Assembly: GCA_003569205.1 (NCBI GenBank)
Contig: BGOK01000034.1
Coordinates: 1 to 64,000, forward strand
DNA: 64,000 nt
Source of the DNA: Verrucomicrobiota bacterium
GTDB taxonomy: Bacteria; Verrucomicrobiota; Verrucomicrobiia; Opitutales; UBA953
Direction: 5' to 3'
The translations under genes and the position numbers were made by a program. The notes under the pieces are model-generated. The model saw only the letters and a list, made by a program, of their open reading frames with translations. It did no database searches and was not told where the DNA came from. Within the stretch, counting starts at the first letter, position 1. Each line of letters opens with the position of its first letter. Positions 25,000 through 42,094 of this stretch are shown here, one piece after another.

Positions 25000-27480
25000 T
25001 TAATGGGTGAAGACGAATTCCTTGGAGTTCAGTAACGCCCAGAAAGCATCCTCAAGGACCGCTTGCCGGCTGGCGGGGTCACTGGCCAAGGCCTTCAGGA
25101 CAGCGTCTTTCTCGGCCGCCAACGGGTGCCGACCGAAGACGCGCATAAAGAGGTCGGTGACGATGACGTCGTTCGACTTACCGTCGGCGATCAGCCGTTC
25201 GACCACCCGACCACGACGGATACGGTCGTTGATGGCGTCCCCGTTCATCAAGTGCAGGGCCTGCGAAAGATTGGGGTCTGTTTTTACCTCGGAAGAGGCC
25301 ACCGACTCGCGCTTGGCGCGGCCAAAGGTTGTGAGGAAGTAGTTACTCACTGCGCCATCGGCGATCTGGACCGCACGGGCCCCGATCGGCAGGCCTTGGA
25401 ACTTATTCGGCGTTTCCGTAATCTGCGAAATGGCGTCGAGTAGTACCTCGGCGCGGACGCGCCGGACCTGGGCGCGGGCGAAATTCAGCTTATCGCCACC
25501 GTTACTGGCGTTCGGCTTGGACGAACGCTGGTAGGCCGCGGAGCTCACGACATCCTTCACCAGCTTCCGGACGTCATAATTATAGTCGGTCAGGTGCTGA
25601 GCTAGTTGGTCAAGTAGATCCGGATTGGACGGCGGATTGGAGACGCGCACGTCATCCACGGGATCCACGACACCGACCCCCAAGAAGTGCGCCCAGACGA
25701 TATTGGAGATATTGCGGGCGAACCATGGGTTCCGCGGCGAGGCGATCCACTCGGCCAACGCCTTGCGTCGGTCATCGCCAGGCTTGAGGTCAGGCTCCTC
25801 GCCTCCGAGGAACTTTGGCTTCACGTTGGCTTTGGTCAGGAAGTGCTGGGACTCCCCGTTCTTATTGTTGTAGATGATGACTTCCTGCGGGTCGTCGGTG
25901 TTCTTCCGGCCAATCTGCGCGAAAAAGGCATTGAAACCATAATAGTCACTCATCGTCCAGCGGTCGAACGGGTGGTTATGGCACTGAGCGCACTGGATGC
26001 GCATCCCCATGAACACCTGGGCAACGTTTTCGCTGAGTTTTAACTTATCCAACTCCGTCTGATAGAAGTTTACCGGCGGGTTGGAGACCGTGCCGCCGTT
26101 GGCGGACAGCAGGTCGACGACCACCTGGTTCAACGGCTGGTTCTGGCCGATACGGTCAGCGAGCCAGTTGTAGTAAAGGAGCGAGTTTTTGTAGAACGGA
26201 GGCTGGTTGTTCCCCCCATTGATGCCGGAGCGAATCTGGAGCAACTCGGACCACTTCATGACCCAGAGCTCGGTGAATTCTTTACGTTGCAAGAGCACGT
26301 CAACCAACTGGGAGCGCTTATCGGGGCGGTTATCCGCTAGGAATGCCTGAACTTCCGCGGGCTTGGGATAAAGCCCGACGACATCGATGTAGACGCGGCG
26401 GACATATTCCTCATCGGTGCAGAGGCCCGAAGGGGCAATGCGCAAGCGGTGCAGGCGCTCGTTCACCGCGGCGTCGACGTAATTATAGGCTTCAGCCTGC
26501 GGACGGGTATAAACCAGGTCCTTGGGAATGACGACCACCTGGGCCGTGACGCTATAGACATCGAAACGGGCCAGCATGAAAGCTGCGCCACGTTCAGCGG
26601 AAATCACCACGCCCTGCTTGTTGACCTTAGCGACAGGGTCATTATTCGACATGAACAGCGCTAGGTTGGTCACATCGCGGTCGGTGCCGTCGGAGTAGGT
26701 GGCGCGGACGGTGATTTGCTGGGTAGCGTTAGATCCCTCCAGGACGATTTGCTTAGGGAAGACCTCGATGCCCGTCACCGTGGCCACGTCGGGGGCGTCG
26801 TTGTGGGCACCCTTTGCGATCCATTCCAGTAAGGTTCGGTTATAAATCGAATCTGCCTCGAAGACTTTATTGCCGGTATGCGGCACGGCACCGATAGACT
26901 TCTCAATCAACGTGCTTTCCTCGGGGATGGCTAAGTTGATACGACGGCCGATCATCTCACGGGTAAGGCGGGTATAGTCGCCGGCAGGGTCCATGCCGAA
27001 AAGCGAGAGACGGAAGCCGTCCTTACCGCGGGCCGCACCGTGACAACCGCCCGCATTGCAGCCACCGCGGAGAAAAACCGGCATCACATCGAGGCGGAAG
27101 GAAACCGCGCGATCCTTGAGGCCATCCTTAACCTGAACTGGCACCTTCGCCGAAAGACCGCCCAATTCGGCGATGACTTCGGTGGCACCGCTGTCGGCGA
27201 CGGCATGCGCGGAATACTCTTCCAGGGAGGCTACCTTCGGATCAACTACGCGTAGGTTAGCAAAAGCCGTCACATCGCGGGTCGTGGCGTCCTTGAAGGT
27301 CGCCAGTACCACTAAGCGATGGAAGTCGCGCTTGGACTCGAGGGCTACCGCGGACGGGAAGATTTCGAGCTTCTCAATCTGCGTGAGCTTTTGCGTCAGG
27401 TCGGCCGGAGCTGGGGCGGCCGTCAGGAAAGCCGGGGCGCACGCCGCCAGGTAAGTGAAGAGCAGTCGGAAGGAAGTCAT
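25000..27480 (-). CDS. DUF1549/DUF1553 (PSD1-type) protein with Ig-like domains and CX4CH site
   Basis: An 826-residue exported protein with a signal peptide over residues 1-22. An Ig-like (BIG2-type) domain at about 35-118 is followed by C141-N-A-G-G-C146-H147, a CX4CH site frequent in this family in place of CXXCH. A second Ig-like domain spans about 230-315. DUF1549 and DUF1553 follow, including CAQCHNHPF and the later FGRHPLAAEKDAV segment. Such proteins pair with DUF1501 proteins in Planctomycetes and Verrucomicrobia and are thought to support glycan degradation; the biochemical role is unproven. Six bases separate its stop from the GTG of the PSCyt1-WD40 gene. Confidence 0.88.
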   Translation of the reverse strand: MTSFRLLFTYLAACAPAFLTAAPAPADLTQKLTQIEKLEIFPSAVALESKRDFHRLVVLATFKDATTRDVTAFANLRVVDPKVASLEEYSAHAVADSGATEVIAELGGLSAKVPVQVKDGLKDRAVSFRLDVMPVFLRGGCNAGGCHGAARGKDGFRLSLFGMDPAGDYTRLTREMIGRRINLAIPEESTLIEKSIGAVPHTGNKVFEADSIYNRTLLEWIAKGAHNDAPDVATVTGIEVFPKQIVLEGSNATQQITVRATYSDGTDRDVTNLALFMSNNDPVAKVNKQGVVISAERGAAFMLARFDVYSVTAQVVVIPKDLVYTRPQAEAYNYVDAAVNERLHRLRIAPSGLCTDEEYVRRVYIDVVGLYPKPAEVQAFLADNRPDKRSQLVDVLLQRKEFTELWVMKWSELLQIRSGINGGNNQPPFYKNSLLYYNWLADRIGQNQPLNQVVVDLLSANGGTVSNPPVNFYQTELDKLKLSENVAQVFMGMRIQCAQCHNHPFDRWTMSDYYGFNAFFAQIGRKNTDDPQEVIIYNNKNGESQHFLTKANVKPKFLGGEEPDLKPGDDRRKALAEWIASPRNPWFARNISNIVWAHFLGVGVVDPVDDVRVSNPPSNPDLLDQLAQHLTDYNYDVRKLVKDVVSSAAYQRSSKPNASNGGDKLNFARAQVRRVRAEVLLDAISQITETPNKFQGLPIGARAVQIADGAVSNYFLTTFGRAKRESVASSEVKTDPNLSQALHLMNGDAINDRIRRGRVVERLIADGKSNDVIVTDLFMRVFGRHPLAAEKDAVLKALASDPASRQAVLEDAFWALLNSKEFVFTH

Positions 27481-27482
27481 GG

Positions 27483-29915
27483 TTATTGCTTGGTGCCCGC
27501 CGCGGCTTGCTGGCGGAGTTGTTCGAGTCGGGAAAGAACGACCGGGGCGGCGGGCGCCACGGCGGGCTTAGTGGCATCGGCCTTCGGGGCTTCGACTTTG
27601 GCGACCGGAGCCGGGGCGACTTTGCGCGGGGCATCGACGCGTAGGCTGGAGCCGAGGGCGACACGGTGCGTCGTCGTGCCACCGGCGAGGGGGACGTCCA
27701 CTTGGATGAAAAGATTACTCAGCTTGCCGGGGAAACAGTCCTTGCCCGGCTTCAGGCGGAAGGTCAGATCCGTAGATGCCTTGGTGATTTTAATCGGCTC
27801 ACTGGCAATGGTGTCAGGAATGCCAACCAAGCGGGCGACGGCCTCCCCTTCGAACGGCTGAAGTTGCTCGAGCTTGGTCGTCACGATGCCCTCCTGCCCC
27901 TGCTCGATAGCCGCCATCGGAAATGCGGGGGCCGCGACATAAGCTGGCTGGGTCTTCAAGCCACAGAACGGCGAAGCGTTAAAGACGCGGCCGCGGCCGG
28001 CATCGGCTTCGCCCATTACGACAAACTTCCACTCCGCCGTTGCCACGCCCGCGTTGGCATTCAGCTGGAAGAAACATTCATTGGCCCCGGCGGGAATGGT
28101 CATCTCCCCAAGCGAAGAAATCCCTGGTGGCGTCCACACCATGACAACCCGAATGGCAGCGGCGAAACCTGGCTTACGCTTAGCAACGACCTTAAGGTCA
28201 TAGACGCCATTCTGGACGAGCGGAACCTTTGGCATGACGATTTCCAAAGCGTAAGGCGCCTCTTCGACCACCACGACTGGCAGGCGGTCCTCCGTGTCGG
28301 TGAGGTAGATAACATTACCATCGCGGACGACGTCGAAGTTCTGGCGGAGACGACCAATGACCTTATTCTGGGGGTCCACGGGCTCTAAGCGGACGGGTAC
28401 GATGGCTTGGCCCAAGGGAGCATCCGCGGCGGCCTCGAACAGCAACGGGGCGTTCGGCATATCCTTCGGTGCGTGCTCGGTCAGTAGTTTCACACCAGCG
28501 GGCAAGCCAGGTGCGACGAATCGGAAATCTCCGCTTACCCGCGTACGGGAGAAGTTTTCGAGTAACGCCATCCGACCACCCCGCGGAACCGCGATGAACT
28601 GACGGTAGTGCGAATCGTTCACCGAGTATTCGGGGGAAGCAAAGGTCAGGCGCGGCTGCGAGGCGATGAGCTCGACGCGGTAGACAAACTTGGGACTGCC
28701 GCGATCCAAGTGGTCACGGATGCTGAGCATGTATTCGCCATCGGCAGGCACCGTGACTTCAAAGCGGGAATCAAGGCGCCGCGTGCCGCCGCCATCATCG
28801 TTGGAAATCAAAGCTACCCCGGTTGAGCCGCGCAGGCTGATAACCGGATCCAGCGGCGAGCCTAACCCCTGCGCGTAGGCATGGCCGGTGAGTACCTGCC
28901 CTTTCTTCAAAGTGAGGCGGTAGTAATCCGAGTCGCCTGGCTCCCCAATGATGCCATTAAGCGCATAAGCCTCGGCGGGCGGCACCACGTTGGCCTGCTC
29001 CCGTGCACTGTTCGGCTCGGACTCCAAGAAGTTATCCATCTGGGAAATGCGAAAGGGATTACCCGACGGCGCCGGCGCCTCGACGGAGAACACCTCGAAG
29101 CTAGGATCCTCTTCCGACGGCACCGTCACCGAACCCGTAAAGGAACCCTTGGCGTCGATGAAACGCACGTCGACTTTTGAGCCGACCTTGCCGCCCGCGG
29201 GGAAGACCACATCTGGTCGGCGGAAATCACCGACATGCAGGCGATAGAACGAGCGCGTCGAACCGCGGTAGGAAGACTCGCGAACCATCACATAATAGTC
29301 ACCGTCGTATTCCGCGACAAAGGAGCAGTAGCCATCTTGACGATGCAAGATCGTGTCGTCGGAAAACGCCTTCTCGAACCGATCCTTGTCGAGAATCGCA
29401 ATGTACGGATCGAAGTTCAAGTAACCAAGACGCAGCCCATCGACCTCCAGGCTGAGGCGCTGCCCTTTTTTCACGGTGACCTTAAAGTAATCCACATCCT
29501 CAGTGAGAACGATACCCTCGATGGTGCTGTTCAGGGGGATGGCCTGGGCCTGAGCAAACTCTGAGTTCGCTTCCTTCTCGTCGACCGTTGGATAAGGGCT
29601 AACAAAGAATTGCCGTGGGTGGGAAAGACCCGTCCGCGTGCGCACGCGCACCAGATGACTGCCCAAGGTGGCGTCGGCGGATACCGCTATGGTCAGATCG
29701 ACCTTACCCGCGGCCACAGCATCGACGCTTTTGACGGTGAAGCCGGGGTCATAGAACAAGAGCGTCTCGAAGTCCTCGAGGCGCGTGCCGGTCACCGAGA
29801 GCTTAAATTCAGAGCCGCGCTGCCCACCATTCGGCTTACAGGCACTGAACTCGGGGTAAGCGGCCCGCAATCCCGCCGTCAGGCAGAGCAGGACGGTAAA
29901 GAGACGGGGCAACAT
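27483..29915 (-). CDS. Exported PPC (pre-peptidase) domain protein
   Basis: An 810-residue secreted protein with a signal peptide MLPRLFTVLLCLTAG from ATG 29915. An in-frame GTG further upstream would overlap the DUF1501 gene and is less likely. It contains Ig-like IPT-type and PPC domains: segments such as VDYFKVTVKKGQRLSLEVDG and SDYYRLTLKKGQVLTGHAYA are typical PPC beta-sandwich sequences, appearing at least twice. No catalytic domain is visible, so it probably has a binding or structural role with its neighbours. The C-terminus is Ala/Pro-rich and ends in a Gln-rich stretch. It lies 29 bases after the DUF1501 stop and 2 bases before the DUF1549/DUF1553 start. Confidence 0.85.
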   Translation of the reverse strand: MLPRLFTVLLCLTAGLRAAYPEFSACKPNGGQRGSEFKLSVTGTRLEDFETLLFYDPGFTVKSVDAVAAGKVDLTIAVSADATLGSHLVRVRTRTGLSHPRQFFVSPYPTVDEKEANSEFAQAQAIPLNSTIEGIVLTEDVDYFKVTVKKGQRLSLEVDGLRLGYLNFDPYIAILDKDRFEKAFSDDTILHRQDGYCSFVAEYDGDYYVMVRESSYRGSTRSFYRLHVGDFRRPDVVFPAGGKVGSKVDVRFIDAKGSFTGSVTVPSEEDPSFEVFSVEAPAPSGNPFRISQMDNFLESEPNSAREQANVVPPAEAYALNGIIGEPGDSDYYRLTLKKGQVLTGHAYAQGLGSPLDPVISLRGSTGVALISNDDGGGTRRLDSRFEVTVPADGEYMLSIRDHLDRGSPKFVYRVELIASQPRLTFASPEYSVNDSHYRQFIAVPRGGRMALLENFSRTRVSGDFRFVAPGLPAGVKLLTEHAPKDMPNAPLLFEAAADAPLGQAIVPVRLEPVDPQNKVIGRLRQNFDVVRDGNVIYLTDTEDRLPVVVVEEAPYALEIVMPKVPLVQNGVYDLKVVAKRKPGFAAAIRVVMVWTPPGISSLGEMTIPAGANECFFQLNANAGVATAEWKFVVMGEADAGRGRVFNASPFCGLKTQPAYVAAPAFPMAAIEQGQEGIVTTKLEQLQPFEGEAVARLVGIPDTIASEPIKITKASTDLTFRLKPGKDCFPGKLSNLFIQVDVPLAGGTTTHRVALGSSLRVDAPRKVAPAPVAKVEAPKADATKPAVAPAAPVVLSRLEQLRQQAAAGTKQ

Positions 29916-29944
29916 GGGCGGACGGGAAGCCGCGGGAGGGACGC

Positions 29945-31276
29945 TTAAGCGAGCCACTCCTGCATGACGCGACCACCGTTGACGATATCGATGGGGCGAC
30001 CGCCATCGGAGACGATACGCTTCTCAGCGTTAATGCCGAGCGCTCGGTACATCGTCTTGGCAAGATCTTCTGGGCCGACCGCATCGCGATCGGGTTCACC
30101 ACCGAGGGCATCGGAAGCGCCGTGCACATAACCTTCCTTCACGCCACCGCCGGCGAGGGCGACCGAGAAGACGCGCGGCCAGTGGTCGCGGCCGTTGGTG
30201 CCGTTGACGCGCGGGGTGCGGCCGAACTCGGAACTGACCATGACGAGCGTGCGCTTGAGCATGCCGCGGTCGGCGAGGTCGGTGATGAGGCGGGCGAAGG
30301 CTTGGTCGAATTGCGGGGCTTGACCGTCGAAGCCGCTCTTGATGTTGGAGTGGTGGTCCCAGCCACCGAAGTTGACGGAGACCATACGGACGCCAGCCTC
30401 GACGAGACGGCGGGCAAGGAGGAAACGCTGCCCCGCGGCATTACGGCCATACTCGTCGCGCATCTTCTCGGACTCCTTGGTGAGGTCGAAAGCCTCGCGG
30501 GCCTTGGCACTGCTGACGAGGCCATAGGCGGCCTGATAGAAGCTATCCATCGCACCGATGGCGTCGGACTTCTCAGTCTCGCGGAAATGCTGGTCGACGC
30601 TTTCGAGCAAGCTACGGCGGCGGTCAAAGCGCTGCTGGTTGATATCCTTCGGCGACAGAAGGTCACGCACGGTGAAGCCCTTATCGGCGGGATCGCTACC
30701 GAGGGCAAACGGACCAAAGGCGCTGCTCATGTAGCCCGTGCCTTGTTCAGGGACGGACTGCGACGGCACCACGACATAGGGAGGCAGGTTGTTGCGCGCG
30801 CCTTGCTCGTGCGAAATGACCGAACCGAAACTTGGAAACTTAATCGCGGGGCTCGGACGGTAGCCCGTGAACATATTATGCGTACCACGTTCATGCGCCG
30901 CCTCACCGTGCGTCATCGAGCGCACGACCGTGAGCTTGTTCATGATCTTAGCGATGTTGACGAATTTCTCGCCGACATACTCACCCGGAAGGGACGTCTT
31001 GATCGGCGTATACGGACCACGGTAATCCGGGGAAGCGAAAGGCTTGGGATCCCAGGACTCGTGTTGCGCCATGCCACCTGGCAGGTAAATGTGAATGACC
31101 GCATCGGCGGTCGCTGCGTAGCCCTCGACCTTCGGCAATTCGAGCGCCTGGAGCTGCATCATTTTAGGCAGCGTGAGGCCAATCGTCCCGAGCATCCCGA
31201 CATGGAGGAAGTCGCGGCGGCTGAAGCCGGCGCCGACCGTGGGGTGGTCACCTTGGCAGAAACGGTGCATTTTCAT
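29945..31276 (-). CDS. DUF1501 protein, alkaline phosphatase-fold, Tat-exported
   Basis: A 443-residue protein with a Tat signal (FSRRDFLHVG, about residues 18-27). The DUF1501 signature includes YLPGGMAQHESWDPK, RSMTHGEAAHERG, GWDHHSN, SSEFGRTPRVNG and GRDHWP, where Asp and His residues suggest a metal-binding, sulfatase-like fold. It is the first gene of the unit DUF1501, PPC, DUF1549/DUF1553, PSCyt1-WD40. Upstream are a G-rich repeat (31284-31308) and an AT-rich patch at 31338-31362 that could hold the promoter. Confidence 0.9.
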   Translation of the reverse strand: MKMHRFCQGDHPTVGAGFSRRDFLHVGMLGTIGLTLPKMMQLQALELPKVEGYAATADAVIHIYLPGGMAQHESWDPKPFASPDYRGPYTPIKTSLPGEYVGEKFVNIAKIMNKLTVVRSMTHGEAAHERGTHNMFTGYRPSPAIKFPSFGSVISHEQGARNNLPPYVVVPSQSVPEQGTGYMSSAFGPFALGSDPADKGFTVRDLLSPKDINQQRFDRRRSLLESVDQHFRETEKSDAIGAMDSFYQAAYGLVSSAKAREAFDLTKESEKMRDEYGRNAAGQRFLLARRLVEAGVRMVSVNFGGWDHHSNIKSGFDGQAPQFDQAFARLITDLADRGMLKRTLVMVSSEFGRTPRVNGTNGRDHWPRVFSVALAGGGVKEGYVHGASDALGGEPDRDAVGPEDLAKTMYRALGINAEKRIVSDGGRPIDIVNGGRVMQEWLA

Positions 31277-31283
31277 GTCGGTA

Positions 31284-31308
31284 GGGGGTAGGGGCTTGGG
31301 GTTAGGGG
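31284..31308 (+). repeat. G-quadruplex-like G-tract repeat in the leader of the DUF1501 operon
   Basis: Four G tracts of 4 or 5 bases (31284-31288, 31291-31294, 31298-31301, 31305-31308) are separated by 2 or 3 bases, an ideal intramolecular quadruplex pattern. The tract is on the template strand of the minus-strand operon, 8 bases from its start codon. A related G-rich stretch lies at 54959-54990. Confidence 0.7.
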
Positions 31309-31434
31309 TAAGACAGATGAAGACGCCTCAGGTTGCCGTTTAAATAACAAAAATAGAACAATTCCACCGCTCAGGCCGGCCCTGTCGCCCCCTCAGGACT
31401 CCCCCGACCCCATTACCCCGCCTGAAAGCCGCTT

Positions 31435-31463
31435 TTGACATTGACCGGGGCATTAAGTACTTA
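31435..31463 (+). promoter_or_regulatory. Candidate sigma-70 promoter for the coiled-coil gene
   Basis: TTGACA at 31435-31440, a 17-base spacer and TACTTA at 31458-31463. The -35 match is perfect and the -10 is weak. If it is used, translation would start at the second ATG (31481) rather than the first (31463). Confidence 0.35.
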
Positions 31464-34078
31464 TGCCGCACCCCCCACCTATGAGCACCCCTGAAACCGA
31501 CGCGACCAGCGAAGAACCCAAGTCCCTCACTTGGGGCTTCCGCCTGCTCCTCGTCTCCTCCGCCCTGTATATTGCCGGATGTTCCGCCTACTTCTCCGTG
31601 CGGGGGCTCGGCCTGCTATTCATCGGCTCGGAGATTCCCGTCATGGTCATGGCGGCGAGCTTGGAGGTCGGCAAGTTGGTCGCGGCCTCCTTCCTCTACC
31701 GCTACTGGGACCGCATCAATGGGGCCATGCGCTTCTACCTCACGGTGGCGGTCGTGGCGCTCATCGCCATCACCTCGCTTGGTAACTACGGCTTCTTGGC
31801 CCGTGCCTACGAGAAGACCATTACACAGATTGCCCTTAATGAAGGCCAAATCGCCAACCTCGAAAAGGAGATCGCGGAAATCAACAAGCAGGTCGAGGAT
31901 GCCCGCGGTAAGAACAGTCGCGTGAACACCTCCAGCCGCGAAGACCTCACGAAGGCTCAAGCCCGCCTTGTCCAGGCCACGGAAGACCTCGCTAAGGCCC
32001 TCACCCGCGTCCAAGAGCAGCGCAAGTCCCTCGCCGACCGCCGGGCCACGGAAATGATTGCGCCCACCCAACGCGGTAGCGACCAGACCGCCGCGATTTC
32101 GAAGTCCATCGCGGCTGAAGAAGCGGCCATTGCCAAGAACGTCGCCGCCGAAGAGGCGACGGTCCTCGGCCTGAACGATCGCCTCAAAGTTCTCGACCAA
32201 GCCGTCGCCGCCTACACCAGCCAAGGCACGACGAGCCAATTCCTCTTCTTCGAGAAGGATAACGTCAAGAAGGGCCAGGAACTCCGCGAGCAACAGCGGT
32301 CGGAACGTCTCGAAATCCTCGCGAAACTTACCGAAACGAGCAACCGCATCGAACGCATCCGCGCCGACGCCAACGCCCGCATCAAGGGTATGCGTGCCGA
32401 CCAGGCCCAGGTCAACGCCACCTCCACCCAGGAGACCGCCACCCTGCGCGCGACCTTCGACCAAGAACTCGCCCGCCTCGATACCGAAGAGAAAGCCCTT
32501 CGTAAATCCGGCGCCGAGAACCTGATCGTCCTGGAAAAGCAGATCACGGCGCTGAATGAGCAAGGCCAAGGTAAGGTCACCTTGACCGAAGCGGAAACCG
32601 AAAAACTCTACGCCTCCGTCCGCACGAAGAACACCGAGGTCTTTAGCCTGCGTGAACAGATTGCTTCCTCTGATATCGGCTCGTATCGCTTCGTGGCCCG
32701 CGCCTTCGACGCCGAAGCCGATGACGTCGTCAAGTGGCTGATGCTGGCGCTTGTCGCGGTCTTCGACCCGCTGGCTGTCTGCCTCGTCGTCGCCTTTAAT
32801 ATGGCGGTGACGCAACGCCGCCGCACCGCGGCGGAAGTTGCGGAAGCCAACGGCGGCGGTAGCGCAGCTGGCCCCGTGCACCGCAAGACCCCTTGGACGG
32901 CCCTCGAAGTCACCATCGTGGTCATCCTGACGTCGGTCATCGCACTGATTGCCGCTTGGTTCTTTATCACCGAACGCTCCAATTCGTATGCCCGGTCCAA
33001 TGCGAACTCGACCGTCTTCATCCCGGCCGAGAGCTTCGCGGTCGTCACCTTTCGCCCCGACGAACTTCGGCAGAAGTCCAATCAGGCCTTTCCGGCATGG
33101 CTCGAGCGCACCGGCGGTAAAGGGATGTCCGCGGCCGTCGCCGAACTCGTGAAGAACGGCCTCGACCCGCACTCTGAACTCTACGCTTTCGTCAAGTTTC
33201 CGACCCAAAGCGTCGCCTCGACCGACGCTAATCGACCGGTGATGATTTGCGGACTGGTCATCCGAGTCAAAGATCCGGTCGTGGCCGAAGCTGCCCTCTC
33301 CCGCGTGGCTGACCAGATGAACAACGCCATCCGCGGTGAGACTGGCAAACCCACTTCACACCTCTCGCGCAGTCGCTCGATGGTCAGACACGGGGAGGGC
33401 CGGTATATGGATCCAGAAGGAGGGTTTTTTACCTTTGGTCTGACGAACCGGACCGCCATCATCTTAGTTGAGTTCGAAGGCAACCCACAGGCCCCTTGCG
33501 TGGAAAAGGAAATCCGCCTATGCCTCACGCCCCCACCCCGCAAGCCCATCAAGGGCACGGAGACGCGCGATAAACTCCCTGCTTACGCCTGCACCCAGGC
33601 CGGCGCTTTGACGCTCTGGTTTGACGCCAACCGTTTTTTCCGTCGCCTGCCGATGAGCACAGCGACCAAGCAGCGCTACGAACAGCTCCAGCCTTCATTG
33701 GACTTCGAACTACTCCTCTCCCTCAGCACGGTAGGAAACGACACGCTCAAGCTCACTGGCAGTTACCTCTACCAATTTGACCGCTTCAATGAAGCCTCGC
33801 CCCGCGAGCCGCTCAAATTACTCGCCGCCGTGGATGCTCCCAAGGCGCCCGACCTCGGCTGGAAACTCATCAACCGTTGCATCGACACCATTGATTACGA
33901 TGCAATGGTGGAACGGATGCGCGGTGCCCTTGGCGACGACCAAGCGCCTGGCGCCCAGCAAGTGCACGTATTGAAAGACATCGCCACTTCCCGTGACGCC
34001 AAGTTTACGATGTCGGCTCGCTTCGACGCCAAGGCGGGCCCGCCAGTGATGGCGGCGATGTCGATTCTTTCGCAATAA
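31463..34078 (+). CDS. Polytopic coiled-coil membrane protein with large C-terminal domain
   Basis: An 871-residue inner-membrane protein. Three helices (about 26-46, 51-75, 88-108) are followed by a coiled coil at about 110-400, a fourth helix near 422-448 containing FDPLAVCLV, a linker, a fifth helix near 478-503, and a C-terminal domain of about 370 residues. The first three helices plus FDPLAV resemble an uncharacterised membrane coiled-coil family that I recall from marine tailed phages (segments like SLEVGKLVAASFLYRYW); the C-terminal domain is not part of that memory and I do not recognise it. The second ATG at 31481 is an alternative start. A lipoprotein gene begins 3 bases after its stop. 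Function unknown. Confidence 0.75.
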   Translation: MPHPPPMSTPETDATSEEPKSLTWGFRLLLVSSALYIAGCSAYFSVRGLGLLFIGSEIPVMVMAASLEVGKLVAASFLYRYWDRINGAMRFYLTVAVVALIAITSLGNYGFLARAYEKTITQIALNEGQIANLEKEIAEINKQVEDARGKNSRVNTSSREDLTKAQARLVQATEDLAKALTRVQEQRKSLADRRATEMIAPTQRGSDQTAAISKSIAAEEAAIAKNVAAEEATVLGLNDRLKVLDQAVAAYTSQGTTSQFLFFEKDNVKKGQELREQQRSERLEILAKLTETSNRIERIRADANARIKGMRADQAQVNATSTQETATLRATFDQELARLDTEEKALRKSGAENLIVLEKQITALNEQGQGKVTLTEAETEKLYASVRTKNTEVFSLREQIASSDIGSYRFVARAFDAEADDVVKWLMLALVAVFDPLAVCLVVAFNMAVTQRRRTAAEVAEANGGGSAAGPVHRKTPWTALEVTIVVILTSVIALIAAWFFITERSNSYARSNANSTVFIPAESFAVVTFRPDELRQKSNQAFPAWLERTGGKGMSAAVAELVKNGLDPHSELYAFVKFPTQSVASTDANRPVMICGLVIRVKDPVVAEAALSRVADQMNNAIRGETGKPTSHLSRSRSMVRHGEGRYMDPEGGFFTFGLTNRTAIILVEFEGNPQAPCVEKEIRLCLTPPPRKPIKGTETRDKLPAYACTQAGALTLWFDANRFFRRLPMSTATKQRYEQLQPSLDFELLLSLSTVGNDTLKLTGSYLYQFDRFNEASPREPLKLLAAVDAPKAPDLGWKLINRCIDTIDYDAMVERMRGALGDDQAPGAQQVHVLKDIATSRDAKFTMSARFDAKAGPPVMAAMSILSQ

Positions 34079-34081
34079 GGC

Positions 34082-35443
34082 ATGAAGGCACGGCGCACAC
34101 TGAACCTCCTGGTTGCCGCCGCGGGTTTGGTGTTCCTCTCGGGTTGCGCCACCGAGACGCTCACCGATAGCGCCTTCTGGTCCTACCTCCCCTTCACTTC
34201 TAACAAGGGAGGCAAGGGCTCAGGGGGCCCGGGCGGCAGCGATGCTCAACAGCCAAAGGTCGACAACGTGCCGTCAGCGAAATCTACCGACGGGGCTAAA
34301 CCGACAACCACGACGCAACGCTCGACCGATCCGGTTTCCGAAGACTGGAACGATCCCGTAAAGCCGAAGTTGCCAGCGGAACTGTCGAAGCAATCTAACA
34401 CGCCACCGCGCGCTCCCAACGACCCTGCGGGCCGCTCGCCCGCGGTGGGTAAGGGTGTCGGTGGCTTGTCGCCTAAAGATTCGGCCGCGAGCCTCCCGGT
34501 CCGAGCTGACCTGCCGACCGCACCCGTTTCTGTCCAGGGCTCGGGCCCAGCCCTGCCTTCGCTGGACAGCAGTGCTCCCGCCGCCAAGAACGCCGGCCCG
34601 GTTACCCTACCCCAGCCCGAGCTCAACCCGACCGCGCCGACCGCGCCACGCGCACTGGGCTTAGGCGATCCGACGGCGCAGGCCCCCGCCAGCCGCACCC
34701 CGGCCAGCAATCCCGCGACCCTCGACTTGCCAGGGCCGAAAGCCCAAGCCCCACGCACCCCGTTGCGCTTGCCCGAACTCTTGGTGGATGGCATTGGCCC
34801 CGCGACAGTCGGTAAACCCACCGTTGCCGAATGGCCGAAGCGCACGGCCCCACCGCAGCCTAGTGATAGCCTCAACCTCCCTCGCGAAGTTCTGGGTGAA
34901 CCTGCCGCAGGCACGCCCGGCCAGGCCTCACGGCGCTTACCTAGGGCCATCACCGACGAACCGCAACGCCCAGCACCCTCAACCGCTTCACTGCCGCTCC
35001 CGGGCATCCCTGCAGACGCACCCACGAGCGCCGCTGGCCAAGCGCCTACAACAGGAACCCTCCCGGGCCAACCCAACGCAGCTAAGACCAACCCTAGCGG
35101 CCCTGCCGTGGCTATCCCGGGCGCACCAGACACCAAGTCCGCCGACGGGCGTACCCTGACTGGTGGCGTGGCCGGCGGTCCCTTGCCAGCCAAGGCCAAC
35201 GGGGAAACGGCCCCTCTGCCAAACGTCGGCCAGGTGCCTCCGCTACCCACTCCCCCGATTCCGGCGCCCTTCCGTCTTAGCGAGTGGATTTCCAACGACG
35301 CCCTGCACCAATCGTGGCGGCGCCAGCAAAGCCAACGCGCTGAACTCGAACCACAGGTCCGTGGCAGCGAACAACAACGCCTGCGGCTCATTCTCGATAC
35401 TTATCTCCTCCGCGAAAAACCCGTGGAGAAGACCGAAAAATAA
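34082..35443 (+). CDS. Proline-rich envelope lipoprotein
   Basis: A 453-residue lipoprotein with lipobox LSG-C near residue 22. Most of it is disordered Pro/Ala/Thr-rich sequence; only the last 60 residues (about 395-453, from RLSEWISNDALHQSW) look folded and helical. A long Pro-rich arm with a terminal helix suggests a structure bridging the periplasm, which is inference from composition. No family recognised. It follows the coiled-coil membrane gene by 3 bases, so both are likely one functional unit. Confidence 0.75.
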   Translation: MKARRTLNLLVAAAGLVFLSGCATETLTDSAFWSYLPFTSNKGGKGSGGPGGSDAQQPKVDNVPSAKSTDGAKPTTTTQRSTDPVSEDWNDPVKPKLPAELSKQSNTPPRAPNDPAGRSPAVGKGVGGLSPKDSAASLPVRADLPTAPVSVQGSGPALPSLDSSAPAAKNAGPVTLPQPELNPTAPTAPRALGLGDPTAQAPASRTPASNPATLDLPGPKAQAPRTPLRLPELLVDGIGPATVGKPTVAEWPKRTAPPQPSDSLNLPREVLGEPAAGTPGQASRRLPRAITDEPQRPAPSTASLPLPGIPADAPTSAAGQAPTTGTLPGQPNAAKTNPSGPAVAIPGAPDTKSADGRTLTGGVAGGPLPAKANGETAPLPNVGQVPPLPTPPIPAPFRLSEWISNDALHQSWRRQQSQRAELEPQVRGSEQQRLRLILDTYLLREKPVEKTEK

Positions 35444-35450
35444 GCAACCG

Positions 35451-35470
35451 CCTTGGGCTTAAACCCAAGG
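35451..35470. terminator. Candidate bidirectional terminator between convergent genes
   Basis: A 7-bp perfect stem CCTTGGG / CCCAAGG around a 6-base loop, overlapping the stop of the minus-strand phosphoesterase and lying 8 bases after the lipoprotein stop. There is no immediate T run on either side, so the assignment is weak. Confidence 0.4.
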
Positions 35471-36562
35471 GATGGTAAACTGATTCTGCTTGGACGCATT
35501 CATCTGCTTACGCGTCGGCGAATAGTCATAGGTCTGCATGGTGCCGTCCTTGCGCATTTCGATGAGGCGCAGCCAGCCATCGCCGCCGTTGGGCTTCATC
35601 TGGAAATTAACGAGGAGCTGGGGCACGGCATGACCTTTGGTAGTCGAGGTGACGACGCGGCCCAGGCCGTCACCAAGGACGTGCCCGTTGAGAGTCAAAA
35701 GGAAGTTCTCATGGCGCGAGATCAACTTTGCCCAGAGCTCTTCGCCGTCGTTGACGTCATCCCCACCCTGCTTGGCCATGACATAAGCGTGCGGATTCCA
35801 GTCCTGCTTGGTTCCGAGCTTCTTCCAGTCGTAGCGCGTCTCATCGTGAAAGATGAGCACGTGCGTTAGGAGAATAACTTCGCGATCTGGGTGCGCCGCA
35901 ACGACTTCATTGGCCCAGCGGACGACGTCATTACGAGGTCCGAACTCCAGACAGAGCACGAGGAACTTGCGGCCACCGGCTTCCAGGAAATGCCAGCTAT
36001 TCTCGGAGCGATCCGGCTCCTTGTCGTAGTTGCCCTTCCAATGCTTCGCCGCGGCCAAGTCCTTCACCGGAAAGAACTCTGACAGCATGCTGGAACGGTC
36101 GGAGCCATTACCCCGCAGGCCGTAGTCATGATTACCCGGCACGAGGCACATCGGCACCTGGGCATCCATGAGCACTTGCATGGCCTTACGCGCGTTAGTC
36201 CATTGTGGGACGGTGTTTTGGTTCGTGATATCGCCGAGGTGGAAGACACCGGCGAGGCGGCGACGTTCGCGTTGTTCGACGAGCCAACGGGTCTGCGCGA
36301 GATAAGTCTCGGGATACTTCTCGGAATAATACTGGGTGTCTGGTAAGACCGCGAAGGTGAAGGAACCTTCGGCCGGCAGTGGCGGCTCGCCCTCGACGAA
36401 GACGGCGTCGGCGTAAGGGTTGGGCTTGGCCTTGGCGGGCACGGCCTTGGGGTCGGCGGCGCGGGCGATAAACGGCAGGCAGCCGAGCGCGAAGGCCCCG
36501 CTGGTCAGGAGAAAATTACGGCGGGAAGGCTGAAAGCGGTGCTCTTCTGAGTTCGGGGTCAT
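35459..36562 (-). CDS. Tat-exported metallophosphoesterase, copy 1
   Basis: A 367-residue calcineurin-like phosphoesterase with a Tat signal (PSRRNFLLTSG). Metal motifs in order: LPDTQYYS, HLGDITNQN, PGNHDYG, LLTHVLIFHD and NGHVLGDG, the last in place of the usual GHxH. I chose ATG 36562 because the GTG that extends the frame to 36586 has no support. It is a paralogue of the next gene upstream (36601-37677), with the last 50 residues almost identical. Substrate unknown; nucleotides or phospholipids are usual for the fold. Confidence 0.85.
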   Translation of the reverse strand: MTPNSEEHRFQPSRRNFLLTSGAFALGCLPFIARAADPKAVPAKAKPNPYADAVFVEGEPPLPAEGSFTFAVLPDTQYYSEKYPETYLAQTRWLVEQRERRRLAGVFHLGDITNQNTVPQWTNARKAMQVLMDAQVPMCLVPGNHDYGLRGNGSDRSSMLSEFFPVKDLAAAKHWKGNYDKEPDRSENSWHFLEAGGRKFLVLCLEFGPRNDVVRWANEVVAAHPDREVILLTHVLIFHDETRYDWKKLGTKQDWNPHAYVMAKQGGDDVNDGEELWAKLISRHENFLLTLNGHVLGDGLGRVVTSTTKGHAVPQLLVNFQMKPNGGDGWLRLIEMRKDGTMQTYDYSPTRKQMNASKQNQFTIPWV

Positions 36563-36600
36563 GAGGCGGTTATAGCGCTCGAGCACGAGCCCGCAAGGGC

Positions 36601-37677
36601 TTACGCCCAGGGAATCGGGAACTGGTTCTGCTTCGACGCGTTCATCTGCTTACGGGTCGGCGAATAGTCGTAAGTCTGCATGGTGCCGTCCTTACGCATT
36701 TCGATGAGGCGCAGCCAGCCATCGCCACCGTTGGGCTTCATCTGGAAATTGACGAGCACTTGCGGTACCGCGTGGCCTTTGGCGGTCGAGGTGACGATAC
36801 GCCCGAGGCCATCGCTGGTGACGTGACCGTTCAAGGTGAGAATAAAGTTCTCGTGGCGAGAGATAAGCTTTTCCCAGACCTCTTGACCGTCATTGATGTC
36901 GTCGTAGGGCTTGGTGAAATAAGCGTGCGGGTTGCCACCCTGCTCCTTGCCGTAGCGCTTCTGATCGTAGCGGGTATCGTCGTGGTGAATATGCGCGTGC
37001 GTGACAAGGATGACTTCGCGTTCCGGGTGGGCGGCGACCACGGTATTGGCCCAGCGAAGCACATCATTGCGCGGCCCAAACTCGAGGCAGAGCACGAGGA
37101 ACTTGCGGCCAGCCGCTTCGAGGAAGTGCCAACTGTTATCGGAGCGGTCGGGTTCCTTGTCATAATTACCCTTCCAATGAGCGGCTTGGGATAGCTCGGC
37201 CACGGGGAAGTATTTGGACAGCATCGTCGTACGGTCGGCGCAGCCACCGCCGAGACCATAGTCATGGTTACCAGGGACGAGGCACATCGGCATTTTGGCG
37301 TCCATCAACACCTGCAAGGCCTTGCGAGCGTTTTCCCACTGCGGGACGGTATTACGGTTCGTGATGTCGCCGAGATGAAGCACGCCGGCAATGCGGCGAC
37401 GTTCACGTTGTTCGACGAGCCAACGCGTTTGCGCAACGAAGTGGTCAGGGAACTTCTCGCAGTAATACTGGGTGTCGGGCAACACCGCGAAGGTGAAGGA
37501 ACCTTCGGCCGGTAAGGGCGGCTCGCCGTCGACAAACACAGCGTCGATATACGGATCCACCTTCTTCTTCGGAGCGTCCGCCCCGCGCACCATGAAAGGC
37601 ACGAAGGCGAGGGAAAGGGCGCCTACGTTGAGTAAGAAATCGCGGCGGCTGCGGTCAAAGCCAGAGGGAGGGGGCAT
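36601..37677 (-). CDS. Tat-exported metallophosphoesterase, copy 2
   Basis: A 358-residue paralogue of the downstream phosphoesterase, sharing its layout: Tat signal SRRDFLLNVG, LPDTQYY, HLGDITNRN, PGNHDYG, LVTHAHIHHD and NGHVTSDG. The two genes are in tandem, 38 bases apart from stop to start. The metal-ligand segment THAHIHHD retains more His than copy 1 (THVLIFHD), so this copy may be the more active one; that is inference. The pair probably arose by duplication with later sequence exchange at the 3' ends. Confidence 0.85.
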   Translation of the reverse strand: MPPPSGFDRSRRDFLLNVGALSLAFVPFMVRGADAPKKKVDPYIDAVFVDGEPPLPAEGSFTFAVLPDTQYYCEKFPDHFVAQTRWLVEQRERRRIAGVLHLGDITNRNTVPQWENARKALQVLMDAKMPMCLVPGNHDYGLGGGCADRTTMLSKYFPVAELSQAAHWKGNYDKEPDRSDNSWHFLEAAGRKFLVLCLEFGPRNDVLRWANTVVAAHPEREVILVTHAHIHHDDTRYDQKRYGKEQGGNPHAYFTKPYDDINDGQEVWEKLISRHENFILTLNGHVTSDGLGRIVTSTAKGHAVPQVLVNFQMKPNGGDGWLRLIEMRKDGTMQTYDYSPTRKQMNASKQNQFPIPWA

Positions 37678-37740
37678 GCGGAGATAGAAGGCGAGCCGCT
37701 AAAGCTCGCCAGCCGAAAGCCACGCTGATGCGTGACGATC

Positions 37741-38376
37741 TTACTTCAACTCAGCCAACTGAATGTTACGGTACTCGACCTTCATCTTGAGCCCGCCATG
37801 GATCTGCAGGCCGACGGAGTAAGGGACCGGGTAAGCTGGGTCGGTCAGCTGCGAGACTTGCTCGCCATTGAGCCAGACGGTGTAGGTGTCGCCCTTGGCG
37901 CGGAAGACGATCTGATTCCAGGCGTCCTTCTTCCAGAGCTTTTCGACCTTCGGGGCAAAACCGGCTTCGGGGTACTTACCGACGTAGTAGGTACAGGTCA
38001 TATCCTTCTTCAGGCTACGAGAGACACCAATCTGCATCTGCATGTCCTTCTTCCCGGCCTTGTCCCGGCGCACCATGATGCCACTGTCGATTTCACCACT
38101 GAAGCGGCATTCAAGGGAGATGATGACATCGCCGTAGGCCTTCTCGGTGTAGAGCATATTGCCCTTCAGCTTTTCATCGTTCTCTCCGACGAGGACGCCA
38201 TCAACGACCTTCCAGAATTTATTCTCCTTAGCGTCCTTCCAGCCGGTGAGGTCCTTGCCATTGAAGGCGGAGACAAAGTCAGCCTTGGGCACGGGCTCGG
38301 AGGCAGGGGCATCGGCGGCACGCAGGGTGGCCGTCAGGGCCAGGGCGAGGAGGGGTAGAAAGCGTAGGGAGCGCAT
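37741..38376 (-). CDS. DUF1080 (3-keto-disaccharide hydrolase-like) protein
   Basis: A 211-residue exported protein with a signal peptide over residues 1-20. FNGKDLTGWK at about 39-48 is the DUF1080 opening, and the remainder (concanavalin-like beta-sandwich, ending KVEYRNIQLAEL) fits the family. Members include 3-keto-glycoside hydrolases and binding proteins abundant in Planctomycetes and Verrucomicrobia. It is divergent from the NHL protein gene at 38479. Confidence 0.85.
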   Translation of the reverse strand: MRSLRFLPLLALALTATLRAADAPASEPVPKADFVSAFNGKDLTGWKDAKENKFWKVVDGVLVGENDEKLKGNMLYTEKAYGDVIISLECRFSGEIDSGIMVRRDKAGKKDMQMQIGVSRSLKKDMTCTYYVGKYPEAGFAPKVEKLWKKDAWNQIVFRAKGDTYTVWLNGEQVSQLTDPAYPVPYSVGLQIHGGLKMKVEYRNIQLAELK

Positions 38377-38478
38377 AGGGTGTATCCCCTAGACACCTCA
38401 AAGGGGGGCGGGTTGCAAGCCTTGGCCGTCTTTCAAATTGCCAGCCCCCGCCGACTGCCCTTAACAAAGCCCACCCCT

Positions 38479-39456
38479 ATGCGTTCGCTCCTCCCTACCC
38501 TCGCCCTCCTTGTCGCCGGTTCCAGCGCTTTTGCCGCCGAACCCAAGTACGAGTTGGTTCCCGACTTCATCAAGCCTAGCCCAGACCGTAAAACTATCGG
38601 CAACGGCCACGGTGAGATCGCCGTCGACTCCGCCGGGCTCATCTACATCAGCGTCCAGGAGGCGAACGCCGGCCTTCAGGTCTACGACCAGACTGGCAAG
38701 TTCGTGAAGGCCCTCAAGCTGCCCAACTCCCTCCACGGCTTCGTGATCCGTAAGACCACCGAAGGTGAATTCATCTATGCCGCCGTCCTCAATGAACAGC
38801 GCCTCATCAAGTGCACGCTCGACGGCGCCATCGTGATGGAAATCAAGGCTGACGACTTCCCCGCCGCCCAAGGCAAGACGAAGGACGGTAAGAACACCCT
38901 TAAGTTGACGAGCTGCGACGTGGCCGCCAACGGCGATATCTACATCGTCGATGGCTACGGCAAGAGCTGGATCTTCCAGTTCGATAAGGCAGGCAAGTTC
39001 AAGCAGGTCTTCGGTGGCCCGACCCAAAAGGTCGCCGAGAAGGGTTTCGCTAACACGCACAAGGTCTTCGTCGATAACCGCTTCGCTCCGGCCCGCCTGC
39101 TCTGCCTCGACCGCGGTAACAACCGTATGTTCCACCTCAACCTCGATGGTACCAACCCGCAGATGATCGCCGATAAGGGCCTGCGTAACCCGTCGTCCGC
39201 CTCATTCCATGGCGAGTTGATGTGCGTCGCTGAAATCGCCGGCCGCGTCTCCGTTTGGAACAAGGAAGGCAAGATGGTCGCAGAACTCGGCGCCAATGAC
39301 ACCAAGGGCCAAACCAACACCCCAGGCGTGAAGCCTGACGCTTGGCGCACCGGCATCGTGACCTCGCCGCACGGCATCACCTTCGACGGCAAGGGCAATA
39401 TCCTCGAGACCGAGTGGAATCAGTTCGGTCGCGTGCTCCGCTGGGACGCTAAGTGA
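38479..39456 (+). CDS. Exported NHL/6-bladed beta-propeller protein
   Basis: A 325-residue secreted protein with a signal peptide MRSLLPTLALLVAGSSAFA from ATG 38479. Repeating blades (for example EIAVDSAGLIYISV, NGDIYIVDGYGKSWIFQFD, SPHGITFDGKGNILETEW) are typical of NHL-repeat propellers. No catalytic residues can be assigned, so it may be a binding protein or a lyase-like enzyme. The next gene starts at a GTG overlapping its stop by 4 bases (GTGA), indicating coupled translation. Confidence 0.8.
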   Translation: MRSLLPTLALLVAGSSAFAAEPKYELVPDFIKPSPDRKTIGNGHGEIAVDSAGLIYISVQEANAGLQVYDQTGKFVKALKLPNSLHGFVIRKTTEGEFIYAAVLNEQRLIKCTLDGAIVMEIKADDFPAAQGKTKDGKNTLKLTSCDVAANGDIYIVDGYGKSWIFQFDKAGKFKQVFGGPTQKVAEKGFANTHKVFVDNRFAPARLLCLDRGNNRMFHLNLDGTNPQMIADKGLRNPSSASFHGELMCVAEIAGRVSVWNKEGKMVAELGANDTKGQTNTPGVKPDAWRTGIVTSPHGITFDGKGNILETEWNQFGRVLRWDAK

Positions 39457-40112
39457 TCCGCGGACTGCGCACCGTCTGCCTGCTTGGGGGAGCCTTGTGG
39501 CTCCCCCTGTTTGCGTCCGCGCATAATGGAGAGTGGTTGCTCGCGAAGTGCACCATCGCGGAAGACAACAGCGTGACGGTGCGGATTACCGCCGACGCCG
39601 AAGCCAACCCGCGTATCAAGACCCAAGAGGACCTCGTCCGTGAGACGAAGGGCCTCCTGCTGGTGTATGACGGCAAGACGACGACCGACTTCTTGCTTCA
39701 GGCCAGCCGAGTCGACCTCGGGGTGGATGACCGCCTCGACCCCGACGCGCCACTCGGCCACACGCCCGAAGAGATGGCGAAGTCGTATACGTTACTGAAG
39801 CTCACCGCTCAGGCCAGCGTGACGCCCCGCAAGTTCACATTCCGGCTGCCAGAGGGCAGTCCACACACAGTGATTCTTTGGCTGGTCGATAAACGCCTGG
39901 AGAAGCAGGAGCCTCGCTGGGTGATGCTCATCGGCGGCGACGAGTCGCCGATGATTGAGGCCGACCGGAGCACCACAGAAGAAGACCGCCCTTGGTGGCA
40001 AAGGGGAGGCAGGAGGGGCTTGCCGATTATCTGGCAGGTAGTCCTGTACGGCACCTTCGCTTTGCTCGCTACTTGGCTGGCCCGTTGGATTAGGAAAAAC
40101 GTGCTGCCCTGA
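39453..40112 (+). CDS. Exported protein with C-terminal membrane anchor, unknown
   Basis: A 219-residue protein starting at GTG 39453, with an N-terminal signal (MIRGLRTVCLLGGALWLPLFASA), a predicted extracytoplasmic beta-rich domain (about 25-175), and one C-terminal helix (about 190-212) followed by a basic end. No family recognised. The 4-base overlap with the NHL propeller gene suggests the two act together. It ends directly at the stop of the convergent esterase gene. Confidence 0.65.
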   Translation: MIRGLRTVCLLGGALWLPLFASAHNGEWLLAKCTIAEDNSVTVRITADAEANPRIKTQEDLVRETKGLLLVYDGKTTTDFLLQASRVDLGVDDRLDPDAPLGHTPEEMAKSYTLLKLTAQASVTPRKFTFRLPEGSPHTVILWLVDKRLEKQEPRWVMLIGGDESPMIEADRSTTEEDRPWWQRGGRRGLPIIWQVVLYGTFALLATWLARWIRKNVLP

Positions 40113-40886
40113 TCAGCCGCAGACGGCGTCGACGAAGCCGCCCTTTGCGTCGAAGTGCGGGTTGTGGCCGCTCTCCGGTAAGGTCACAAAAGTCACCTGC
40201 GGGAAATGCGCGCGAATTATCGGCAGGTCTTCATCGCGCACGTAGCCCGACTTCCCGCCGCGGATGAAGCGTGTGGGGCCGGACCACGTTTCATCGGGTC
40301 CGATGGGGTTGCCGAGGATTTCGGGAATCGCCTCGGTCAAGGCCGCGCGATTCACGGTCCAGCGCCAACGGCCTGCGGCGTCTTGGCCCAGGTTTGTCAG
40401 GATGAATTGACGCATCCCCCAATCGGCGACCAGCGGAGTCAGCAGCGCATCGGCGTCCTTACGCGTCTTGATTGCAGTGAGGTCTAAAGCATTCATCGCC
40501 GAAAACTCCACGCGCGCACGGTCACTATAAGTACGCGGAGCGATATCGACGATGGTGAGGTGTGAAACAAGGTCAGGCCGATCCAACACCAGCCGCATGG
40601 CGACCTTGCCGCCCATGCTATGCCCCATCAGATGCACGGGGCCTAAGGCGAGCTTTTCGAGTAGCGCCACGATATCACTGGCCAACGCCGCGTAAGTACA
40701 ATCATCACCCCACGGCGAGGAACCATGGTTGCGGAGGTCCGGCGCGAGGACGCGGTAGCCGCGCTCAGCCAAGGCCACGCCGGCGGACTGCCAATTCCGC
40801 GACGAGCCGAGGAGTCCGTGGAGCACGACCAAGGGCGGGCCTTCGCCGCCGAGTTCACGCAGCGCAAGCGTCAGCGGGGCGCTCAC
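40113..40886 (-). CDS. Alpha/beta hydrolase (YbfF-like esterase)
   Basis: A 257-residue cytoplasmic esterase-type hydrolase. The oxyanion motif is LHGLLGSSRNW, the nucleophile is Ser in GHSMGG, the acid is probably Asp in the TIVDIAPR region, and the catalytic His is in ESGHNPHF. Start is GTG 40886 overlapping the PilT stop (GTGA), so its expression may be coupled to pilT although no functional link is known. Closest by pattern to acyl-CoA/short-chain esterases such as E. coli YbfF. Confidence 0.85.
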   Translation of the reverse strand: MSAPLTLALRELGGEGPPLVVLHGLLGSSRNWQSAGVALAERGYRVLAPDLRNHGSSPWGDDCTYAALASDIVALLEKLALGPVHLMGHSMGGKVAMRLVLDRPDLVSHLTIVDIAPRTYSDRARVEFSAMNALDLTAIKTRKDADALLTPLVADWGMRQFILTNLGQDAAGRWRWTVNRAALTEAIPEILGNPIGPDETWSGPTRFIRGGKSGYVRDEDLPIIRAHFPQVTFVTLPESGHNPHFDAKGGFVDAVCG

Positions 40887-41992
40887 TGGATGATCCGGCC
40901 AGATTGAATCGAGATACCGGACAGGTTCATCTCGAAAGCCTTCGGGTTAGGCGAGGCGGCGAGGCCAGCGGCCTTGCTGACCTTGCCTGCACGGACCAAG
41001 CGGACCAAGTCTTGGTTAATCGGACGCGAGCCGACATCGGCGCCCCCTTCGACCAGCTCGGGTACGCGTTCAAATTGGCCGTCAGCGAGGAGGCGCTTCG
41101 CCAAGCCATCGACGATGAAGACCTCCATGACAGGCAGCACACCCTGGCCGTCAAGGCGCGGGACGAGGGTTTGTACAAGGACGGCCTTAAGCGAGGCCGC
41201 GATCGAACGGCGCGCCAAGGAGAGCTGCTCGGCCGGGAAGAACTCGAAGAGACGCTGGACGGCTTGCTGGGCAGAGCCGGCGTGTAGCGTCGTGAGTACC
41301 AAGTGCCCTGTTTCCGCGGCATGGAGGGCTGTTTCAAAAGTCTCCTTGTCACGCATTTCACCGACGAGAATCACGTCGGGATCCTGCCGCAAGGCAGCGC
41401 GTAAGCCCATCGGGAAGGACTCCACGTCGATGCCGATTTCACGTTGGCTAAAGGAACTCCGCTCGTCCGCGTAGACATACTCCACCGGGTCCTCGAGCGT
41501 GATGACGTGCAGGGCCGAGTTTTCGTTTACGTGGCGGAGCATCGCGGCGATGGTCGAACTCTTGCCGGAACCGGTTGGACCGCAGACCAGCACGAGGCCT
41601 TCCATGAGCTCGAGGGTCTGGAGCATAGTCTTTTCGTCGAGGTTGAGTTCGGCGAACTGCGGCGGCTTGACCTTTACCAAACGCAGGACGGCAGCGGGCT
41701 GATTACGTTGCAGGAAGGCATTGACGCGGAAGCGCCCTTTGCCTTGGGCCATGCGATCAAAGGAGTAATCGATTTGGTTATCGCGCACCCAGCGGTCGCG
41801 GAAACGGGTCGGTAGGGTCGCGTCGACGAACGCATGTAACAACTCAGCGGTCAATGGGGCCATCTCGGCCTCCACCAGCTCACCAGCGACACGCATCAAG
41901 GCGGGACGGCCGGCTTTAAGGTGCACATCGCTAGCGCCGTTTTCAACGGCGAGGCCTAGGAGTTCCTCGAAGATTTTGGGTAGGTCGGCCAT
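40883..41992 (-). CDS. pilT: PilT/PilU-type twitching motility ATPase
   Basis: A 369-residue cytoplasmic retraction ATPase of type IV pili. Walker A is GPTGSGKSS at about 138-146, followed by the Asp box (ITLEDPVEYV), Walker B (VILVGEMRD) and His box (HLVLTTLHAGSA). ATG 41992 is chosen because the conserved N-terminus ENGASDVHL follows; an extended start at 42040 has no support. PilU differs little and the two cannot be separated here. No pilin or assembly genes are nearby. Confidence 0.9.
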   Translation of the reverse strand: MADLPKIFEELLGLAVENGASDVHLKAGRPALMRVAGELVEAEMAPLTAELLHAFVDATLPTRFRDRWVRDNQIDYSFDRMAQGKGRFRVNAFLQRNQPAAVLRLVKVKPPQFAELNLDEKTMLQTLELMEGLVLVCGPTGSGKSSTIAAMLRHVNENSALHVITLEDPVEYVYADERSSFSQREIGIDVESFPMGLRAALRQDPDVILVGEMRDKETFETALHAAETGHLVLTTLHAGSAQQAVQRLFEFFPAEQLSLARRSIAASLKAVLVQTLVPRLDGQGVLPVMEVFIVDGLAKRLLADGQFERVPELVEGGADVGSRPINQDLVRLVRAGKVSKAAGLAASPNPKAFEMNLSGISIQSGRIIQ

Positions 41993-42094
41993 GGCGGGGG
42001 GCACCAAGGTAAGCCTGTGGTCAGCGAGGGGTCGAACCATAATTCTCAGCGGTGCACGCTGGACAGACCGCGGCAGACTTTTATCACTATTCTC

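Follow-up and report, generated by a model that had tools for sequence, protein, structure and literature searches.

Genes A and B, adjacent in a 64,000-nucleotide stretch of an Opitutales contig (BGOK01000034.1; here called the window), are real genes that form a stable two-gene unit across the Opitutae. The core of A is almost certainly a member of a protein family of large tailed phages, and B encodes a lipoprotein. The reading preferred here, at a little short of even confidence, is that the two proteins make up a putative envelope-spanning bridge, its core probably captured from a phage, in which B would reach A from the outer membrane.

Both open reading frames were verified where a preliminary description of the window had placed them, three bases apart (Table 1). 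The later start given for A is probably the true one, since close homologues begin at MSTPE. Purifying selection is strong on A (omega 0.01-0.16 in TM1-3, 0.05-0.20 in the C-terminal domain, and 0.12-0.35 in the coil) and weaker on B (omega 0.25-0.53 at 29-61% identity, in five comparisons). Searches of Pfam, NCBIfam, and PHROGs with A and B returned nothing meaningful, and promoter and terminator scans of the locus gave results at chance level.

Table 1. Positions in the window of genes A and B and of the segments of A, with the basis for each.
Feature	Position	Strand	Description and basis
Gene A, inner-membrane protein	31463..34078	+	871 aa; probable start 31481 (865 aa)
A: TM1-TM3, residues 24-114	31532..31804	+	motifs LEVGKLVAASFLYRYW and ITSLGNYGFL; phage/bacterial alignment, AlphaFold2 model, omega 0.01-0.16
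A: outgoing coiled-coil arm, residues 115-235	31805..32167	+	AlphaFold2 model, conservation, arm-length covariation
A: conserved hairpin tip, residues 236-285	32168..32317	+	alignment, AlphaFold2 model, conservation
A: returning coiled-coil arm, residues 286-398	32318..32656	+	AlphaFold2 model, conservation, arm-length covariation
A: membrane-proximal segment and TM4 with FDPLA, residues 399-447	32657..32803	+	alignment, model; common to phages
A: TM5, about residues 478-500	32894..32962	+	AlphaFold2 model; bacterial proteins only
A: C-terminal domain, residues 512-871	32996..34075	+	DUF4836-like, probably TP0453-like fold; predicted periplasmic
Gene B, lipoprotein	34082..35443	+	453 aa; lipobox LSGC (Cys22), low-complexity arm, conserved C-terminal motif

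The core of A consists of three transmembrane (TM) helices, a coiled coil whose tip is conserved, and a fourth TM helix carrying FDPLA. By tblastn it matched 13 phage records (E 1e-11 to 3e-28). A single Flavobacterium phage accounts for four of these, as isolates or copies, and two are huge-phage records that match identically; the same 13 were recovered with two different viral queries. The matched phages include XacN1, Stenotrophomonas CM1 and RAS14, Pelagibacter Mosig, Microcystis Mel-JY01, Flavobacterium immuto, and Salicola SCTP-2, along with metagenomic phages of 484 and 735 kb, and a scan of IMG/VR yielded at least 582 viral stretches with a homologue of the core. Aligned phage and bacterial cores have motifs in common in TM1-TM3, at the tip of the coil, and in TM4 (VFDPLA); the tip motif, LDxxxxxY...K...LR..Q.PER, is present in Mosig and partly in SCTP-2. 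The two segments quoted in the preliminary description, SLEVGKLVAASFLYRYW and FDPLAVCLV, are both present and are conserved parts of this phage-shared family, and the resemblance of residues 20-450 to phage proteins that was proposed there is borne out by tblastn (E to 3e-28), by the alignment, and by the IMG/VR scan. Its attribution to marine tailed phages was right as to the tailed phages but too narrow as to habitat, since phages of Xanthomonas, Stenotrophomonas, and Microcystis and huge metagenomic phages have it as well. The family is unnamed in Pfam, NCBIfam, and PHROG, none of which has a model covering the core.

The surroundings of the phage homologues vary. An Hsp20-type chaperone gene occurs within a few genes of the homologue at 38 of the 80 loci of a redundant set (L035-L114), and among 6 of 114 neighbours in a less redundant one; as a constant phage neighbour it was rejected, being frequent but not universal. 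ClpX and ClpS- and ClpP-like genes recur around the homologues of the same redundant set. A lipoprotein is gene -1 in only three of 39 phage contigs; the viral, long-coil homologues L055, L092, and L096 have a lipoprotein gene at -1, and L055 and L096 another at -3. Phage-type homologues also turned up in a Pseudoalteromonas peptidolytica isolate (L191, NZ_WEHZ01000015.1; possibly a prophage or phage contig) and in metagenome-assembled genome records whose titles name other bacteria or an archaeon (L187, L188, L190, L192, and L193), which are probably binned viral contigs.

The AlphaFold2 model of the whole of A (mean pLDDT 78, pTM 0.47) has helices at residues 87-152, 159-253, 267-368, and 376-402, with a break at 254-266, followed by TM4 and TM5; the arrangement between the membrane segments is TM3-helix-turn-helix-TM4. 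Compared with the PDB, the full-length model gave coiled-coil noise only. Among 47 homologues, the lengths of the outgoing and returning arms are correlated with r = 0.987 (0.976 over the 17 distinct pairs), and they change in matched steps, for example from 127/122 to 116/111 (-11/-11); related rows in this set are not independent, but the separate length classes (116, 127, 141, 152, 159, 166, and 191) match alike. Matched lengths are a requirement of an antiparallel coiled-coil hairpin, and the coil of A behaves as one. Its tip is more conserved than its arms (mean majority fraction 0.64, vs. 0.46 and 0.44), and alignment insertions take up 118 and 129 columns in the arms and 6 in the tip. 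A rise of 0.1485 nm per residue gives arm lengths of 16-29 nm.

Beyond TM4 the bacterial proteins part company with the phage ones, which end there with a short tail: TM5 is found in 49 of 49 bacterial and 0 of 78 viral proteins, and the C-terminal domain accompanies it in all 49, so that A combines a homologous core with a different architecture. Modelled alone, the domain is predicted with fair confidence (pLDDT 81, pTM 0.83). It had been described as an unknown domain of 370 residues; an alpha/beta domain of its own, some 360 residues long, is indeed present, but "unknown" no longer applies, since it is DUF4836-like and, in its modelled fold, probably TP0453-like. At E<=1, Pfam DUF4836 (PF16120) matches 14 of 45 of these domains (best E 1.1e-6), the one in the window scoring 13.4 bits, under the gathering cut-off of 27. 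Comparison of the domain model with TP0453 by VIA-align gave Z 11.9 (rmsd 4.5, 229/250 residues), the next family standing at Z 6.7. Foldseek alone found no significant match for the domain in the PDB, and a PDB sequence search with A alone found nothing; a profile of the domain gave weak matches to Tcp24 (E 0.0037). No other DUF4836 was found in the window's genome, and none of the papers searched dealt with DUF4836. Three marine Opitutae loci (L194:891-3368, L195:533-2989, and L196:2559-5021), each adjoining a riboflavin synthase-like gene (MFTGIVE start), encode proteins of about 820 aa that look secreted and contain a domain matching the C-terminal profile of A (E 2e-6 to 7e-11), followed by repeats that look ankyrin-like by eye. 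Because these proteins carry a matching domain, a mobile domain fused to a phage-type core is suggested for A.

TP0453 itself is a Treponema pallidum lipoprotein located on the outer membrane's inner leaflet (PMC7521688), and titles cited in that paper describe it as membrane-sensing and permeability-enhancing. Such a fold, together with the lipoprotein nature of B, would fit a lipid or lipoprotein carrier, in which the TP0453-like domain takes up an amphiphile at the inner membrane, to be passed across the periplasm by A and B, with the hairpin as a guide and not a structural tether. A common fold does not establish function, however, and no ATPase or other transport gene is linked to the pair in both clades; a carrier is considered unlikely.

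A lipobox is present in B (LSGC, Cys22; Ala at +2), as it is in nearly all of the complete genes downstream of A homologues. Its layout is a lipid anchor, a long low-complexity arm, and a conserved end, the motif PFRLSEWIS...HQ.WR...RLRLILDTYLL. The tail motif of the window's genus is PFRLSEWIS..HQAWR, and that of the marine clade is RFxxALxWIxxKGR; at L137 and L138, B is without the terminal helix. The earlier label of a "Pro-rich lipoprotein" is correct as to the lipoprotein, but Pro richness is a variable trait (2-22% Pro in the full-length protein), restricted to close relatives of the window and certain other lineages. The arm, described earlier as ending in a helix, does close with a conserved short motif.

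At nearly every locus with sufficient sequence, B lies downstream of A, with a gap of no more than about 15 bases or a short overlap; L142, L154, L175, L177, and L178 lack a clear lipoprotein under a simple ORF rule, and the same rule missed B at L125 and L129, whose close relatives L126 and L127 have it. The adjacency, noted earlier for the window alone, is kept in its genus and in other families of the order, and the downstream lipoprotein persists in freshwater and marine clades despite different other neighbours. It is this preservation, in two deep clades whose other neighbours differ, that speaks against separate action of two co-transcribed genes, A as a membrane scaffold on its own and B as an unrelated lipoprotein. 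The rapid divergence of B and the two different forms of its tail would fit such an arrangement; it is judged quite improbable.

A is present in 23 of 57 near relatives, in 54 of 323 genomes of the order, and in 5 of 388 genomes drawn from the phylum. The bacterial proteins fall into two blocks, one of freshwater Opitutae in and around the window's genus and the other of marine Opitutales (both habitat labels being taken from record titles and tree position); a few matches titled otherwise (e.g., Phycisphaerales, Klebsiella) group with these blocks and are probably mislabelled or misbinned. In an unrooted tree of the homologues of A, each block is a single group (support 100/99 and 100/96), and the two together with a single long viral row, L035, form one group (85/90) beside far more diverse viral rows. 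Since the bacterial range is narrow and patchy and the viral rows are more diverse, transfer from phage to bacterium is the likelier direction.

Neighbours tested from 25000 to 42040 encode DUF1549/DUF1553, PPC, and DUF1501 proteins, two metallophosphoesterases, a 3-keto-disaccharide hydrolase, and a T2SSE ATPase, with two more lacking a Pfam match; the Pfam scan of these genes found no phage family, in agreement with the earlier remark that no phage genes are nearby. The two metallophosphoesterase genes (35459-37677) are tandem and similar, with RRDFLL/RRNFLL-type N-termini. A perfect inverted repeat without a T run, CCTTGGG-CTTAAA-CCCAAGG, occupies 35451-35470 and lies across the ends where B and the following gene converge.

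A core homologous to a protein common in aquatic phages, patchily present in the order, could also be an exapted interference device, with A mimicking the homologue of an infecting phage and blocking its function or assembly, and B as an accessory. PADLOC gave no credible match for A or B, only for coiled-coil stretches in two homologues; in the marine clade the surrounding genes are conserved and of housekeeping type, not a defence island; and deep clade-wise inheritance with a conserved hairpin suits a housekeeping role. Interference by A seems decidedly improbable.

For the preferred envelope bridge, the following may be proposed. An ancestor of the aquatic Opitutae probably took the core of A from a large tailed phage. 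A would be the inner-membrane half of the bridge, with its hairpin and C-terminal domain in the periplasm, a placement suggested by the number of TM helices and by positive residues after TM2 and TM4 (RYWDR and QRRR, by eye). The tip might extend as far as the outer membrane or the peptidoglycan, or close to them. B could be seated in the outer membrane, its C-terminal motif docking on A at the end of a long flexible arm, and the pair would tether the two membranes or hold their spacing. To our knowledge, lipoprotein sorting rules are not established in the Verrucomicrobiota, so the outer-membrane location of B is a guess by analogy. We infer a joint structure spanning both membranes, as the preliminary description did, and the hairpin lengths argue for it; the variation of the arm and tail motif of B between clades argues against a bridge. 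A more ambitious version, an undescribed class of phage-derived envelope-spanning machine in which the 16-29 nm hairpin is a ruler of periplasm width, B closes the bridge at the outer membrane, and the phage version acts in the same space during infection, is rather doubtful.

Whatever its function, the core of A draws attention to an undescribed family of proteins that is widespread among large aquatic phages, a member of which one bacterial lineage retains as a stable two-gene unit, and the bacterial pair offers a handle on the role of the phage protein. If the bridge is real, phage membrane machinery became part of a cell envelope, and the matched arm lengths make control of periplasm width testable, as arm length against envelope spacing across species. 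None of the libraries searched describes the core family, and a literature search likewise found neither the phage protein nor a domesticated envelope pair in this phylum described, although a description elsewhere is possible.

Systems that span the envelope with an inner-membrane coil paired with a lipoprotein are already known as a kind. In Tol-Pal and similar systems, an inner-membrane protein that has long periplasmic helices is combined with a lipoprotein of the outer membrane; the analogy is one of working only, and A and B match no Pfam or NCBIfam model. Two-component spanins (Rz/Rz1), like A and B, have an inner-membrane coiled-coil protein followed by a lipoprotein, the small i-spanin having a single N-terminal TM helix, and they disrupt the outer membrane through its fusion with the inner membrane; unlike them, A and B are chromosomal and much larger, with five TM helices, a hairpin that returns to the membrane, and no lysis cassette, none of the tested window genes being a lysis gene. 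A lysis pair captured from a phage and acting in programmed lysis or spanin-like membrane fusion, which the i-spanin/o-spanin gene order (PMC6139136) would recall, can be given hardly any credence, as the two spanins combined average no more than 250 residues (PMC6139136) vs. 871 + 453 aa and five TM helices here, the phage homologues have no consistent lysis neighbours, and most phage contigs have no adjacent lipoprotein gene. The C-terminal domain of A is probably similar in fold to TP0453, at a sequence identity of about 10%, but unlike DUF4836 and TP0453 it is tethered by TM5 to a hairpin protein. With the phage family (named examples: XacN1 ORF242 in Xanthomonas, Mosig gene 157 in Pelagibacter, SCTP-2 gene 195 in Salicola, and immuto gp185 in Flavobacterium), A shares the TM1-TM3 motifs, TSxGxYGF, the TM3-TM4 coil, FDPLA in TM4, and, with some members, the tip motif. 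The phage proteins have a shorter coil (median TSxG-FDP distance 161, vs. 329-378 in the bacterial proteins) and a tail after TM4 without TM5 or C-terminal domain, and they have no constant lipoprotein partner, whereas A carries both additions and is accompanied by B.
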